From positions 1 through 25,165 of IMG/VR virus record IMGVR_UViG_3300043446_000803: a stretch of 25,165 bases of DNA, one strand, 5' to 3'. This DNA is from a virus. A program made the translations under genes and the position numbers. Shown piece after piece: positions 2 to 18,872 of the stretch (positions are counted from its first letter, which is position 1; each line of letters starts with the position of its first letter). The notes beneath the pieces are model-generated. The model did no database searches, was not told the origin of the DNA, and was given only the letters and a program-made list of their open reading frames with translations.

Positions 2-64
2 CTACTCGGCAAATACATTAGAAAGTTTGTTGGAGATAAACTGGAGCTCTATGGAACCAAATAA
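2..64 (+). CDS. possible C-terminal end of an upstream gene (partial)
   Basis: Frame 2 is open from the left edge and ends at TAA 62-64. It encodes about 20 residues, beginning LLGKYIRKFVGDK, a plausible basic amphipathic protein end. It would overlap the probable gp33 start at 51 by 14 bases, an arrangement common in this compact genome. The gene body lies outside the window, so no function can be given. The other two forward frames are less likely: frame 1 stops at 19-21 and frame 3 runs into gp33. Confidence 0.35.
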   Translation, partial: LLGKYIRKFVGDKLELYGTK

Positions 65-311
65 AGAACTAGAACAGGCAATAGAAAGCAAGTTTTTAAC
101 ACCTTCCAAGTTTGCTCTTGAGATTGAAAAGATTGTTGCTGAGGAAAACTTCAACTATATTGATGCGATTTGTCATTATTGCGAAATCAATAGTCTTGAG
201 GTAGAATCTGTAGTAAAACTCATTTCAAAACCATTGAAAGAGAGACTGAAGTGGGACGCAACCCGTCTTAACTTTATGAAGAAAACTTCTAGAGCACGAT
301 TGCCTTTGTGA
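51..311 (+). CDS. 33: gp33-like late transcription co-activator
   Basis: Small acidic/basic protein of 86 aa resembling T4 gp33, which bridges the sliding clamp and host RNA polymerase so that gp55-bound polymerase fires late promoters. The central segment (FALEIEKIVAEENFNYIDAI, then a stretch like NSLEVESVVKLIS) follows the T4 gp33 pattern of a helical EKMV / SYLEA / ENSIPE core. T4 gp33 is 112 aa, so this is a short form. ATG 51 is chosen, with GGAG at 43-46. The frame is open upstream, and TTG 27 would add eight residues. It sits just before gp59 and gp32, the same gene neighbourhood as T4, but is separated from gp59 here by a homing endonuclease. The many late promoters in the window fit the presence of this factor. 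Confidence 0.75.
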   Translation: MEPNKELEQAIESKFLTPSKFALEIEKIVAEENFNYIDAICHYCEINSLEVESVVKLISKPLKERLKWDATRLNFMKKTSRARLPL

Positions 312-327
312 AACTAAACTATATAAT
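300..327 (+). promoter_or_regulatory. weak sigma70-like promoter at the end of gp33
   Basis: TTGCCT (300-305) and TATAAT (322-327) are separated by 16 bases. The -10 is perfect but the -35 matches only about four of six positions. It could drive the homing endonuclease and gp59 early. Chance occurrence in AT-rich DNA is quite possible. Confidence 0.25.
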
Positions 328-335
328 AATGCCTG

Positions 336-403
336 GTTTGTTCGCACTTTTCAGGTGGGGAGAGTAGGAATGCTCTCCCTTATAAATAGTAATGCGAACA
401 AAC
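336..403 (+). promoter_or_regulatory. nested hairpin region enclosing a late promoter
   Basis: An 11-bp perfect inverted repeat (GTTTGTTCGCA 336-346, TGCGAACAAAC 393-403) encloses a second hairpin, GGGAGAG 358-364 with CTCTCCC 373-379 (8-nt loop), and the late promoter TATAAATA at 381-388. Late transcripts should begin near 394, inside the right arm, so only read-through RNA from upstream could form the outer stem, which ends three bases before the endonuclease ribosome site AAGAG (406-410). The inner hairpin has only a short AT-rich tail and is at best a weak terminator. Confidence 0.6.
381..388 (+). promoter_or_regulatory. late promoter TATAAATA
   Basis: Exact match to the T4 late promoter core TATAAATA recognised by gp55/gp33-modified polymerase. 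It lies 28 bases before the preferred endonuclease start at 416. Its transcript would exclude the in-frame ATG at 392, which argues for the downstream start. Confidence 0.75.
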
Positions 404-415
404 TTAAGAGCAGAA

Positions 416-892
416 ATGTATTACGTTTATCTCTATTTGAGAGAAGACAGAACTCCTTATTATGTTGGTAAAGGTATTGGTAGAAGATGCTATAAACCTC
501 ATATTAGGGGTGGTGCTAATATTTGTCCCCCGAAAGATAGAATAATAATCGTCAAAGAATTTGAAAATGAGGAAGAAAGTTACGAATATGAAAAGTGGCT
601 TATTTCTTTTTATGGTAGAAAAAGTGACGGAGGTATTCTAATTAATTTAAGGGATGGTGGTGTAGATGGAAACATAATATCCAGAGACCTTGCCGAAAGA
701 GAACAACATATTCGGGAGTGGAATAGAAAATATCATAGGCAATATTATAAGGATAATCCAGATAAACAAAAACAGTATAGAGAAAAAAGAAAAGAACAAA
801 GAAAGGAAACTTATAAAAAATGGTATGAACAAAACAGAGATGCTGTGCTAAAATATAAAAGGGAAAAATACCATAGAGAAAAGAAAAAATAG
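416..892 (+). CDS. GIY-YIG homing endonuclease
   Basis: Protein of 158 aa with an N-terminal GIY-YIG nuclease domain: YVYLY (residues 3-7) replaces GIY, YYVGKG (15-20) replaces YIG, followed by Arg23/24, His29, a Glu in EYEKW (about 57-59) and Asn78 in INLRDGG. These match the order of catalytic residues in I-TevI (Tyr, Arg, His, Glu, Asn). The C-terminal half (about 95-158) is very basic and rich in Tyr/Lys/Arg repeats, suiting DNA binding. ATG 416 is preferred over ATG 392 because AAGAG lies at 406-410 and the late promoter at 381-388 would leave 392 at or before the transcript start. It is a free-standing selfish element inserted between gp33 and gp59, which are neighbours in T4. Its target is probably that junction or a neighbouring gene, which is inference. 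Confidence 0.85.
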   Translation: MYYVYLYLREDRTPYYVGKGIGRRCYKPHIRGGANICPPKDRIIIVKEFENEEESYEYEKWLISFYGRKSDGGILINLRDGGVDGNIISRDLAEREQHIREWNRKYHRQYYKDNPDKQKQYREKRKEQRKETYKKWYEQNRDAVLKYKREKYHREKKK

Positions 893-894
893 TT

Positions 895-1485
895 ATGGCG
901 CCTTTTGAAGTTTATTGTGAGTATCTTGCGTTAAAGTCGCATTTTACAAATCCAAAATATGATTACTTCAAATATAACAAAAAAGTAAGAGCAACTATTA
1001 CATCCTTTAATCGTCGTCGTGATAAATATTTTTTCGAAAAAACGTCGAGAAAATATTCTGATAAAGAAGTTGTTGATTTTTTAGTCGCAAACTTTGTAGA
1101 ATCTACTAGTGTGAATCAAATATGGATTGGAGAAATTATCAATTCTGGCGAAAGGACTTACGCAGATTGGATGCGAAGACAACAGAGTTTGACGTACTTG
1201 TTCAAGGAGCAATCGGAAGAATTGTTCTCTCAGACAAAATTAGACGATGCTCTGAACTGCTCCAAAGGACATCCAACGGTTCTCAAAAAGTTTCTAAGCG
1301 GGAAGTTATCGCTAGAAACTTTAACAATCTACGACAGAATATTCCGTTTCTCCGCAGATTTTGATAAAAAACTTCTGGACCCAGTGTGGGAAACCGTCAG
1401 TCTTAAAATCAAAAAATATACACCGTTTCTAAATATTGATGTGTTCAATTACAAGAAGATTTTACGGGAAATCATAGATGAGTAG
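895..1485 (+). CDS. 59: gp59-like replicative helicase loader
   Basis: A 196-aa helical protein resembling T4 gp59 (217 aa), which loads the gp41 helicase onto gp32-coated single-stranded DNA at forks and recombination intermediates. The N-terminus (APFEVYCEYLALKSHF) and the basic segment following (KVRATITSFNRRRDKYFFEK) match the family pattern of a short helical start followed by a basic DNA-binding helix. It begins two bases after the homing endonuclease stop and overlaps the next gene by eight bases (ATG at 1478, stop 1483-1485), suggesting translational coupling. The location two genes before gp32 fits their joint action. No base-composition anomaly is seen here. Confidence 0.8.
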   Translation: MAPFEVYCEYLALKSHFTNPKYDYFKYNKKVRATITSFNRRRDKYFFEKTSRKYSDKEVVDFLVANFVESTSVNQIWIGEIINSGERTYADWMRRQQSLTYLFKEQSEELFSQTKLDDALNCSKGHPTVLKKFLSGKLSLETLTIYDRIFRFSADFDKKLLDPVWETVSLKIKKYTPFLNIDVFNYKKILREIIDE

Positions 1486-1871: not shown

Positions 1872-2792
1872 ATGTCGTTTTCCGACCTTAAGAAACAGTC
1901 CAAGCTTGGCAATCTGACCGCCAAACTGGTCAAAGAAGTTGAAAAAATGAATAATAACAGCGGTTCGTCTGACGACCGTGTGTGGAAACTGGATGTAGAT
2001 AAGAGCGGCAATGGTTATGCCGTCATCCGTTTCCTGCCCGCCCCCAACGGTGAAGACCTGCCGTTCGTGAAACTGTACTCCCACGCCTTTCAAGGTCCTG
2101 GTGGTTGGTACATTGAGAACAGTCTCACTACCCTGAATCAAAAAGATCCTGTGTCCGAACTGAACTCCGAACTGTGGAACAATGGCACTGATGCTGGTAA
2201 GGAACTGGCACGTAAGCAGAAGCGTAAACTGACCTATGTGTCCAACATTTACGTGGTGAAGGATCCTGCCAATCCCGCCAACGAAGGTAAGGTGTTCCTG
2301 TTCAAGTATGGTAAGAAGATCTTTGACAAACTCACCGCTGCCATGCAACCCGAGTTTGAAGATGAGGAAGCAATTGATCCGTTTGACTTCTGGCAGGGTG
2401 CTAACTTCAAACTGAAGGCAAAGAACGTTGCTGGTTATCGCAACTATGACTCTTCCGAGTTCGCCGCTTCTGCTCCTCTCCTGGACGATGATGATGCTAT
2501 GGAAGCAGTGTGGAAGAAGCAGTATTCTCTTGCTGAACTCGTTGCTGCCGATCAGTTCAAGTCCTATGATGAACTGAAGAAGCGCCTGGACTATGTGCTT
2601 GGTTCCAAAGGCACTCCCCGTTATCAAGATCCTGAAGATATGGATGAGGACAACACCCGTGGTTCTACCCGTGAACTGACCGAAGATCTTCGTACTGAAA
2701 TCAACAATCTCCAACCCACCCGTCGTGCTGCGGTTGAGGAAGACGAGGACGATGATGCCCTGTCGTACTTCGCCCGTCTTGCCGAGGAGTGA
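1872..2792 (+). CDS. 32: gp32 single-stranded DNA-binding protein
   Basis: A 306-aa protein coating single-stranded DNA during phage replication, recombination and repair. The OB-fold core is clear: YAVIRFLPAPNGEDLPFVKL and YSHAFQGPGGWYIEN match T4 gp32, as do SNIYVVKDPANPANEGKVF, FKYGKKIFDKL and GANFKLKAKNVAGYRNYD. The basic N-terminus (residues 1-20) fits the cooperativity domain. The C-terminus is acidic (VEEDEDDDALSYFARLAEE), as needed for contacts with gp59 and other partners. Unlike T4 gp32, there is no cysteine anywhere, so the zinc ribbon is absent although the equivalent of T4 His64 remains (His71). Length is close to T4 (301 aa). Codon use is GC-richer and strongly biased to CTG, GGT, CGT and AAC compared with the tail genes, which suggests high expression. 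The next gene overlaps its stop. Confidence 0.95.
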   Translation: MSFSDLKKQSKLGNLTAKLVKEVEKMNNNSGSSDDRVWKLDVDKSGNGYAVIRFLPAPNGEDLPFVKLYSHAFQGPGGWYIENSLTTLNQKDPVSELNSELWNNGTDAGKELARKQKRKLTYVSNIYVVKDPANPANEGKVFLFKYGKKIFDKLTAAMQPEFEDEEAIDPFDFWQGANFKLKAKNVAGYRNYDSSEFAASAPLLDDDDAMEAVWKKQYSLAELVAADQFKSYDELKKRLDYVLGSKGTPRYQDPEDMDEDNTRGSTRELTEDLRTEINNLQPTRRAAVEEDEDDDALSYFARLAEE

Positions 2793-3376
2793 AGACTGAT
2801 TACTACATTGACCGTGTAAGTAAATCCGAAGCCGCAGAGTTACTTCTGCGGTTTCATTATCTTAAGGACTTTTCTAAAGGATTTAGATCAGGATACAACT
2901 ACGGTCTTTACAAGGGTAATGACTTTTGCCCATTGAATATTGGTGGTATTCAGGGAGTTTGTGTCTTCACAGGTCTCCCTGTTCCAGAAATCGCACAAGG
3001 AGCATTTGGACTAGAACGGAATGAGCAAGAAGGACTATTTGAACTTTCACGACTTTGCATCCACCCTGAAACCCAACGAACCGAATATAATATCACTTCT
3101 TGGTTTGTTTCAAGAGCGATTAGACAGTTACGGAAGGATACAAAAGTTAGGGCAATCATCTCTTACGCTGATAGTGATTTCCATCATGGTACAATCTATC
3201 GTGCTTGTAATTTTAAATATTGCGGACTTTCAGACCCAAAGAAGGATTTCTACTATGCAGACGGAACTAAACACTCTAGAGGCAAAATTAAAGGTGCTGA
3301 AGGAGAATGGAAAGAACGCTCCCGCAAACACCGATATGTGATGGTATTTGATAAGAATCTAGAGTTATTGTGGTAG
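2789..3376 (+). CDS. Mom-like (GNAT-fold) putative DNA-modification protein
   Basis: A 195-aa protein. Residues 125-146 (SYADSDFHHGTIYRACNF followed by KYCG) match the signature of the phage Mu Mom family: an SYAD block, then H-x-G-T-x-Y and a closing F-x-Y-x-G. Mom is an acetyltransferase-fold enzyme that converts adenine in phage DNA to a carbamoylmethyl derivative, protecting it from restriction. Other family-like parts are HYLKDF near residue 24 and FELSRLCIHPETQ at about 88-100, the usual GNAT beta-strand region. The start is GTG 2789, overlapping the gp32 stop (TGA 2790-2792); no ATG lies near. GAGGAG directly before it is too close to be a good ribosome site, so translation is probably coupled to gp32. 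The 3' end overlaps convergent gp53 by 12 bases. The family call is fairly secure, activity in this phage is not. Confidence 0.65.
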   Translation: MKTDYYIDRVSKSEAAELLLRFHYLKDFSKGFRSGYNYGLYKGNDFCPLNIGGIQGVCVFTGLPVPEIAQGAFGLERNEQEGLFELSRLCIHPETQRTEYNITSWFVSRAIRQLRKDTKVRAIISYADSDFHHGTIYRACNFKYCGLSDPKKDFYYADGTKHSRGKIKGAEGEWKERSRKHRYVMVFDKNLELLW

Positions 3377-18314: not shown

Positions 18315-18388
18315 GCCCGTTTACCTATCTGGTTGAAAGGACTCGACTCATAATCGAATTTAGAGTGGTTCAATTCCACTAACGGGCA
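18315..18388 (+). tRNA. tRNA with CAU anticodon (Met or lysidine-type Ile)
   Basis: A 74-nt gene. Acceptor GCCCGTT (18315-18321) pairs perfectly with AACGGGC (18381-18387), discriminator A. D arm 18324-18340 with GG in the loop. Anticodon loop CTCATAA (18347-18353) gives CAU. The anticodon stem has one C-A mismatch at its base. T arm AGTGG-TTCAATT-CCACT. CCA is not encoded. CAU serves Met, or Ile for AUA codons after lysidine modification; the acceptor does not look like an initiator tRNA. Confidence 0.8.
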
Positions 18389-18391
18389 CTT

Positions 18392-18422
18392 GACCATAAA
18401 GACTCTTTGAGTTATTATGGTC
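18392..18422 (+). other. intergenic hairpin between tRNA genes
   Basis: GACCATAA (18392-18399) pairs perfectly with TTATGGTC (18415-18422), and an inner ACTC-TTT-GAGT stem continues it with one mismatch. It fills the gap between the CAU and UAA tRNAs. It could mark tRNA processing, or be the remnant of another tRNA anticodon arm. No poly-T tail, so terminator function is unlikely. Confidence 0.5.
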
Positions 18423-18427
18423 TCATT

Positions 18428-18502
18428 GGCGGTGTAGCCCAATCGGCAGCAGGCAGTTGACTTAAAATCAATACAGTGCGAGTTCGAATCTCGCCACCGC
18501 TA
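18428..18502 (+). tRNA. tRNA with UAA anticodon (Leu, UUA codons), class I shape
   Basis: A 75-nt gene. Acceptor GGCGGTG (18428-18434) pairs with CACCGCT (18495-18501, first pair G-T), discriminator A. T8, a D arm with GG in the loop, anticodon stem GTTGA/TCAAT, loop CTTAAAA with anticodon TAA at 18463-18465, and T arm GCGAG-TTCGAAT-CTCGC. The variable loop is only five bases (ACAGT), whereas bacterial leucine tRNAs normally have a long variable arm. CCA is not encoded. UUA is common in the AT-rich tail genes, so it may help phage translation. Confidence 0.8.
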
Positions 18503-18548: not shown

Positions 18549-18872
18549 ATGCCTTACAAAGATAAAGAAAAGCAAAGAGAAGCACAGAGACTTTGGGCCC
18601 AGAAAAAATATGAGAAGTCTGGAAAAAAAGGAGATGTATCTTTACAAAAAAGAAAACAAATGGTTATAGACGCTAAAAATGTCCCTTGTGCTAGATGTGG
18701 CGAAGAACATCCACATTACGTTATGGACTTACATCATATAAATCCAGAAGAAAAGGAAGGAATGATAGGGTATTTTATAAAGTCTGGAAACTATCAATCT
18801 TTACAAGAAGAGATAACCAAGTGTATATGTGTCTGTGCTAATTGTCATCGATACATTCACAATGAAAAATAA
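18549..18872 (+). CDS. HNH endonuclease (free-standing homing type)
   Basis: A 107-aa protein. The N-terminal half (1-45) is highly basic and helical, starting PYKDKEKQREAQRLWAQKKY, and probably binds DNA. The HNH domain follows: Cys47-x-x-Cys50, DLHHINP (60-66) with the catalytic His, and a second zinc pair Cys96-x-x-Cys99 followed by HRYIH (100-104). All key positions are present. It lies next to the tRNA cluster, a common landing place for homing elements. Its start is poorly placed for translation: no ribosome site, and a hairpin directly upstream. Its stop (TAA 18870-18872) is part of a late promoter for the next gene. Confidence 0.85.
   Translation: MPYKDKEKQREAQRLWAQKKYEKSGKKGDVSLQKRKQMVIDAKNVPCARCGEEHPHYVMDLHHINPEEKEGMIGYFIKSGNYQSLQEEITKCICVCANCHRYIHNEK

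Follow-up and report, generated by a model that had tools for sequence, protein, structure and literature searches.

In a T4-like cyanophage, a putative homing endonuclease gene, free-standing and probably mobile, is preceded by a leader that is likely to act as a late-only translation switch, as judged from sequence comparison and predicted RNA folding. The window, i.e. the whole 25,165-nt stretch analyzed here (a 25-kb virus record), begins with gp33, the GIY-YIG gene, gp59, a DUF1825 gene and gp32 (Table 1). Any RNA begun 5′ of the left arm, including read-through RNA from gp33, would contain both arms of an outer hairpin, and the outer stem, extended onto part of the Shine-Dalgarno (SD) sequence, would keep ribosomes out. 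Because TATAAATA sits between the arms, late transcripts (start ∼394) would lack the left arm and their ribosome site would be open. The nuclease would be translated late only, because this internal box (P2) is read as a late promoter; NATAAATA is the reported late-promoter motif of cyanophages (PMC2984593). We infer the promoter activity, the repression and the timing of the switch from evidence that was computed: the sequence itself, its non-randomness, covariation, conserved promoter placement and a difference in accessibility.

Table 1. Features of the nuclease locus at the start of the window, in order of position.
Feature	Position	Strand	Evidence or remark
gp33 late-transcription co-activator, upstream host gene	3..311	+	Pfam Trans_coact 3e-28; phrog_254; 5′ end outside window
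P1 box, degenerate in window	318..325	+	ACTATATA; family consensus N[A/C]TAAATA; predicted +1 at 331; alignment to 69-181 cassettes
Strand a (GCCTG)	331..335	+	partner a′ (352-356) in short RNA or a″ (407-412) in read-through RNA; covariation, swap test, fold
b, left arm of outer hairpin	336..346	+	GTTTGTTCGCA
a′ (CAGGU)	352..356	+	pairing with a puts b in the loop
Inner hairpin c/c′	357..380	+	10-bp stem closed by GGAA; resembles a terminator in most relatives, weak U-tract in window
P2, internal late promoter (predicted)	381..388	+	TATAAATA; predicted +1 at 394; NATAAATA is the cyanophage late promoter in PMC2984593
b′, right arm of outer hairpin, 5′ end of predicted late mRNA	393..403	+	TGCGAACAAAC
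Shine-Dalgarno AAGAG (406-410) and a″ (407-412)	406..412	+	fold; covariation of columns 16/109 and 17/108
GIY-YIG endonuclease gene, between gp33 and gp59	416..892	+	phrog_10829 2e-30; phrog_314 homing endonuclease 1.5e-5
gp59 helicase loader, downstream host gene	895..1485	+	adjoins gp33 in uninserted phages

The gene is assigned to the GIY-YIG nucleases on the basis of its phrog matches, a profile match of its product to a GIY-YIG domain of known PDB structure (E 0.003) and its predicted fold: the top matches of the AlphaFold model were GIY-YIG structures, including GIY-YIG UvrC, all of them weak. The Pfam GIY-YIG model gave no match to the window protein; alignments revealed a GIY-YIG module with the conserved Y, G, R, E and N residues. 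The product is considered a homing endonuclease whose cutting, and homing into a target allele, are putative. The conserved nuclease start is at position 416 (MYYVYLYLRED), and a further in-frame ATG at 392 spans the start of the right arm. An empty gp33-gp59 site was seen in S-SRM01, S-SKS1 and S-CAM9. Since both genes are nearly contiguous in these uninserted phages, the GIY-YIG gene and its leader represent an insertion.

Two other loci of the window were noted. A Mom-like DNA modification gene (2789-3376; Pfam Mom 2e-26) lies immediately 3′ of gp32, with a 12-bp hairpin and modest T tail (2828-2855) within its first codons. At 18315-18502 and 18549-18872, two tRNA genes and then an HNH endonuclease gene without a late-promoter hairpin leader were found.

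The arms GTTTGTTCGCA and TGCGAACAAAC are 100% complementary over 11 bp and enclose TATAAATA, which is present in a single copy in the window when both strands are counted. A perfect hairpin of at least 11 bp around TATAAATA arose in none of 300 Markov-shuffled windows (∼1.5 TATAAATA per window), and the perfect 11-bp inverted repeat described in the original prediction is confirmed. The RNA of positions 330-450 folds at −43.3 kcal/mol (z = −5.9), a value equalled by none of 200 shuffles. A chance hairpin is ruled out by the fold score and the shuffled windows. The inner hairpin, earlier given as 7 bp, has a 10-bp stem (357-366/371-380) capped by a GGAA tetraloop.

The main stem of the window copy ends 2 nt before the SD, consistent with the position first proposed for AAGAG, directly after the right arm. 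The outer stem extends outward, however, through bulged pairing of 330-334 with 407-412 that covers part of the SD; therefore, the SD lies partly within the extended structure, not merely beside it as had been thought. With the right arm at the ribosome site and the late consensus between the arms, the window copy has the hairpin plus internal late promoter layout of a T4-type leader. The seg43(25) leader of Aeromonas phage 25 is similar to the main stem of the window in that a strong hairpin lies directly 5′ of the SD, not over it (PMC2988022). Unlike the window copy, no extension over the SD is reported there, and the role of that hairpin is left open in the same paper.

The predicted cost of opening positions −16 to +3, averaged over 173 related leaders (termed cassettes), was 12.2–12.8 kcal/mol with the left arm in the RNA (12.2 for read-through RNA) vs. 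3.2 kcal/mol for late RNA. RNA starting at the upstream P1 box was costlier to open than late RNA by >2 kcal/mol in all 173 cassettes. In the window copy, opening of 401-430 required 13.1 kcal/mol with the left arm in the RNA vs. 7.2 kcal/mol in late RNA, and the difference for SD to AUG alone was modest (6.4 vs. 3.5 kcal/mol). The late RNA of the window is by itself not fully open, and the effect is smaller than the family mean.

Close relatives of the window protein are encoded on 27 viral contigs (L001-L027). The outer stem, the inner hairpin and the internal TATAAATA are all kept in L001-L023, with three unrelated stem sequences among them, and L024-L027 have no leader of the window kind. 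The window protein is 97% identical to that of L001, yet their stems are wholly different, and L193, from another protein subfamily, has the same stem as the window, so the leaders are exchanged as modules. The first ∼30 nt of coding DNA (416-445 in the window) are almost identical between the window and L001-L023 even at 40% protein identity, which suggests that leader and N-terminus move as one block.

The unrelated stems of near-identical proteins also bear on a DNA-level role of the inverted repeat, as an operator bound by the endonuclease, a cruciform or a mobility signal. The repeat encloses a promoter, the cassette has a sharp edge at P1, and I-TevI, which represses its own late promoter, provides an operator precedent (PMC2988022). 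Against this, 97%-identical proteins have unrelated repeats and one repeat precedes different protein subfamilies, which makes a protein-specific site unlikely, and an RNA feature is indicated both by where the repeat lies with respect to the start codon and by its bulged extension onto the SD. We give a DNA-level role very little credence. Across relatives the stem is substituted wholesale, base for base, with complementarity retained. This replacement, the fixed position of P2 and of the start, and the predicted accessibility support the originally proposed occlusion of the ribosome site in read-through RNA and its relief in late RNA, which would constitute the translation switch.

Searching phage records with the leader by nucleotide blast returned nothing useful because the stems are hypervariable; it was replaced by protein-anchored and pattern searches. 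Wider protein searches yielded 108 distinct GIY-YIG starts, and a stem of at least 9 bp around NATAAATA was found just upstream of 84 of them vs. 20 of 3000 random ATGs, a control that may contain true cassette copies. A slightly stricter rerun gave 83 of 108 starts with the cassette, and nine of the other 25 have an imperfect-stem cassette, as judged by eye. Since ∼15 of the 108 GIY-YIG starts examined are without such a leader, it is not indispensable. A scan for the junction of inner hairpin and promoter revealed the leader also before further GIY-YIG types and before HNH and NUMOD3 proteins; the nucleases downstream of the cassettes belong to different families, and the host genes upstream of them differ as well. 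Removal of duplicates left 181 distinct cassettes, a set with 47–71 nt between P1 start and P2, and with 93 distinct left arms (about 90 stem sequences).

A covariance model scored the window copy, one of its 69 training sequences, at 94 bits. It also detected six copies in isolate S-SRM01, two copies in B23 and, in a single contig, as many as nine. The S-SRM01 copies (host Synechococcus sp. KCZYC6) are located in MW015081.1 near 17953, 48433, 51247, 55959, 62406 and 192421, and four of them fall within an array of small hypothetical genes, which we infer to be early genes. The S-B68 copy was found by the model and confirmed by eye, and S-N03 and S-CREM2 gave weak matches, yet showed the same element order on inspection. 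No significant match was obtained in T4, Aeh1, Aeromonas phage 25, Syn9, P-SSM2, S-CRM01, S-SKS1 or ACG-2014f.

Several variants were observed. In S-B68 (MK016664.1, 44316-44428, minus strand) the cassette lies between DNA polymerase and uvsX, with CTAAATA and not ATAAATA as internal promoter. A compact variant (L006:583, L069:698, L250:786, L256:11277 and L295:4158), the nearest to the T4 form, has a 12–17 bp hairpin whose arms are separated by the late promoter alone (∼25 nt), mostly immediately before a GIY-YIG-like start. In a second subtype (L031:992, L056, L071, L105, L112, L141 and L185) the left arm lies in the loop of a long GTGGGcaGCAAC/GTTGCgtaaGTCCCAC-like stem; the a/a′ stem is longer, a separate inner hairpin is missing and the start codon is flush with the right arm. 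Very short broken frames follow the cassette at L244:3579, L266:5941 and L298:6856; these leaders were apparently orphaned when the nuclease gene decayed.

The portable leader is ∼100 nt long, stands before several GIY-YIG and HNH nuclease families and reads, 5′ to 3′, P1, a, b, a′, the c/c′ inner hairpin and its T-rich tail, P2, b′, a″ with the SD, and start codon. Conservation is lacking upstream of P1, which therefore marks the 5′ edge of the cassette. In 69 diverse cassettes, 81.5% of the cells were paired vs. 67.6% when shuffled and 46–60% when slid, a percentage inflated because the stem pairs had served both in finding the cassettes and in drawing the structure; the shuffle controls leave relatedness in place and the slid controls keep it (46–60% vs. 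81.5%). Double changes, which are the better evidence, numbered 265 vs. 97 in the control. Covariation is strong for b/b′ (in every class) and c/c′, and likewise for a/a″, which forms the base of the outer stem (columns 16/109 and 17/108, each paired in 68 of 69).

Strand a also covaries with a′ (82 double changes vs. 34), and a/a′ pairing is present in 168 of 181 cassettes vs. a mean of 82 when 5′ ends were swapped among cassettes. On reasoning only, a stable pseudoknot of a/a′ and b/b′ in one RNA was judged implausible: strand a adjoins b directly, which leaves no linker that could cross an 11-bp stem. The pairings were treated as alternatives. An HDV-like ribozyme, with a similar strand order, was likewise dropped by reasoning only: the connecting stretch is a promoter, and no catalytic core was seen.

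The late start near 394, beyond the left arm, that the original prediction proposed coincides with the predicted P2 +1; in 180 of 181 cassettes P2 +1 is one of the first four nt of the right arm. The P2 box ATAAATA, which the strict detector itself required, occurs in each of the 83 cassettes that it found before GIY-YIG starts. P1 ([A/C]TAAATA-N-T-A-A-T-R-C) and P2 (TATAAATA-N-T-A-A/T-T-R-C) share a discriminator, and stem a begins exactly at the predicted P1 +1. A late-type P1 box is present in 174 of 181 cassettes, a set chosen because a P1-like box was present (197 of the 230 raw candidates), and the window copy, which reads TATATA, has one mismatch. P1 as a target-site promoter predating the insertion was rejected for the gp33-gp59 site, since P1 is absent from the empty sites. 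From the alignment, the cassette family predicts a late start upstream of 336 (331 in the window), which would yield a short untranslated RNA.

The inner hairpin could in principle act as a plain insulator of an ordinary late unit, terminating upstream transcripts before P2 restarts synthesis, with the outer stem secondary; termination at P2 or polymerase from P1 might then hinder P2. The hairpin is terminator-like, with a tetraloop and a T-rich tail, and directly abuts P2, and the late-promoter motifs of the window frequently share nucleotides with the stop of the preceding gene. Insulation leaves unexplained the b/b′ covariation in every class and the a/a′ pairing, and the window copy and the short variants keep the outer stem without a good U-tract. 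The inner hairpin of the window copy did not qualify as an intrinsic terminator (G+C-rich stem plus U-tract): the stem is good, only 4 T occur in 8 nt, and the terminator scan did not list it. Termination is predicted to be weak in this copy and strong in those of the L189 type. We regard insulation by itself as unlikely.

A reading that we consider possible, short of probable, adds a short RNA to the translation switch. P1 would be a late promoter whose transcript, stopped by the inner terminator, is an RNA of ∼50–70 nt with two hairpins; its loop b would pair with b′ at the 5′ end of the P2 mRNA and damp nuclease translation even late, in trans and in cis. The common discriminator and the placement of the predicted P1 +1 agree with this, as do the two-hairpin fold of 177 of 181 predicted P1-to-P2 RNAs and the a/a′ pairing, which has no obvious use in a cis-only switch. 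At least 5 T occur in the last 10 nt before P2 in 169 of 181 cassettes, retrieved by a pattern scan that selects strong-tail copies, and 99 of 181 passed a strict terminator rule (background for the tail, 7.6%). Predicted pairing with the cognate leader is −13.0 kcal/mol vs. −3.4 kcal/mol with non-cognate ones, although cognate complementarity is automatic given the cis hairpin. The element order is conserved in the divergent isolates S-N03, S-CREM2 and S-B68. In contrast, P1 is under less constraint than P2 (A 70%, C 30% at a position that is nearly always A in P2, with C in S-B68). In 42 of 103 cases its TAA also ends the reading frame of the gene upstream, which could account for part of its conservation. 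An incompatibility function, in which a genome avoids two cassettes with the same stem, was unsupported: a genome does not keep its stems distinct from one another, at least 9 nt being shared in 4 of 72 within-genome pairs vs. 3 of 558 between genomes.

From the P1 box, the a/a′ pairing and the terminator-like hairpin, most copies would make a two-hairpin RNA of 47–71 nt that is complementary to the nuclease leader. Most relatives may thus have an extra layer, in which a late start at P1 would give a short RNA, ended by the inner hairpin and with the left arm looped, that could pair with the nuclease mRNA at its 5′ end. This layer seems weakened in the window copy. With its degenerate upstream box and weak U-tract, plain T4-like occlusion is the best supported reading there. 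The original prediction is supported as to the mechanism but incomplete, having missed the terminator-like hairpin, the P1-like box, the a/a′ pairing and the occurrence before many nuclease families. As a tentative proposal, cyanophage free-standing homing endonucleases may share an exchangeable cassette in which two tandem late promoters give the nuclease mRNA and a 47–71 nt antisense-like RNA with a loop matching only its own mRNA, i.e. a self-matched, hypervariable RNA governor swapped between nuclease families.

In T4 I-TevI, I-TevII, I-TevIII and segB and in Aeh1 mobE, a hairpin sequestering the ribosome binding site is bypassed via an internal late promoter (PMC2988022), and the leaders of the T4 late genes e and soc follow the same principle (PMC3014915); these precedents had been cited correctly. 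The cyanophage cassette is like those of I-TevI, I-TevII, I-TevIII, segB and mobE in having a hairpin at the ribosome site, a late promoter whose RNA would lack the left arm and a homing endonuclease downstream. It differs from them in its free-standing genes, inner terminator-like hairpin, box at the 5′ edge and a/a′ pairing, and in a layout common to several nuclease families. The textbook hairpin of T4 gene e, recovered by a similar detector, is a single compact one with ∼10 nt between the arms, lacking both an inner hairpin and an upstream box. When the 65 NATAAATA sites of T4 were screened, this compact hairpin was recovered and none had the P1/terminator layout.

CfrI, an RNA of cyanophage S-PM2, is likewise tied to a homing endonuclease gene. 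It is ∼225 nt long and antisense to that gene (PMC2984593), whereas the presumed cassette RNA is in tandem on the same strand. No Rfam family matched the cassette at or near the gathering score, and the only Rfam matches in the window were two tRNAs. A literature search, with most subscription journals outside its scope, found no publication describing the cassette. The principle is already known, and the P1/terminator form of the cyanophage cassette appears to be new.

A mechanism studied so far in a small number of T4-like phages that infect enteric bacteria or Aeromonas is extended by these data to abundant aquatic viruses, with nearly 200 natural variants. Isolate S-SRM01, with its six copies, opens the switch and the proposed short RNA to direct testing. 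The late-only leader would be common to different nuclease families, and selfish nuclease genes that bring their own insulated leader could settle among phage genes of the early or middle class and still avoid mistimed expression.
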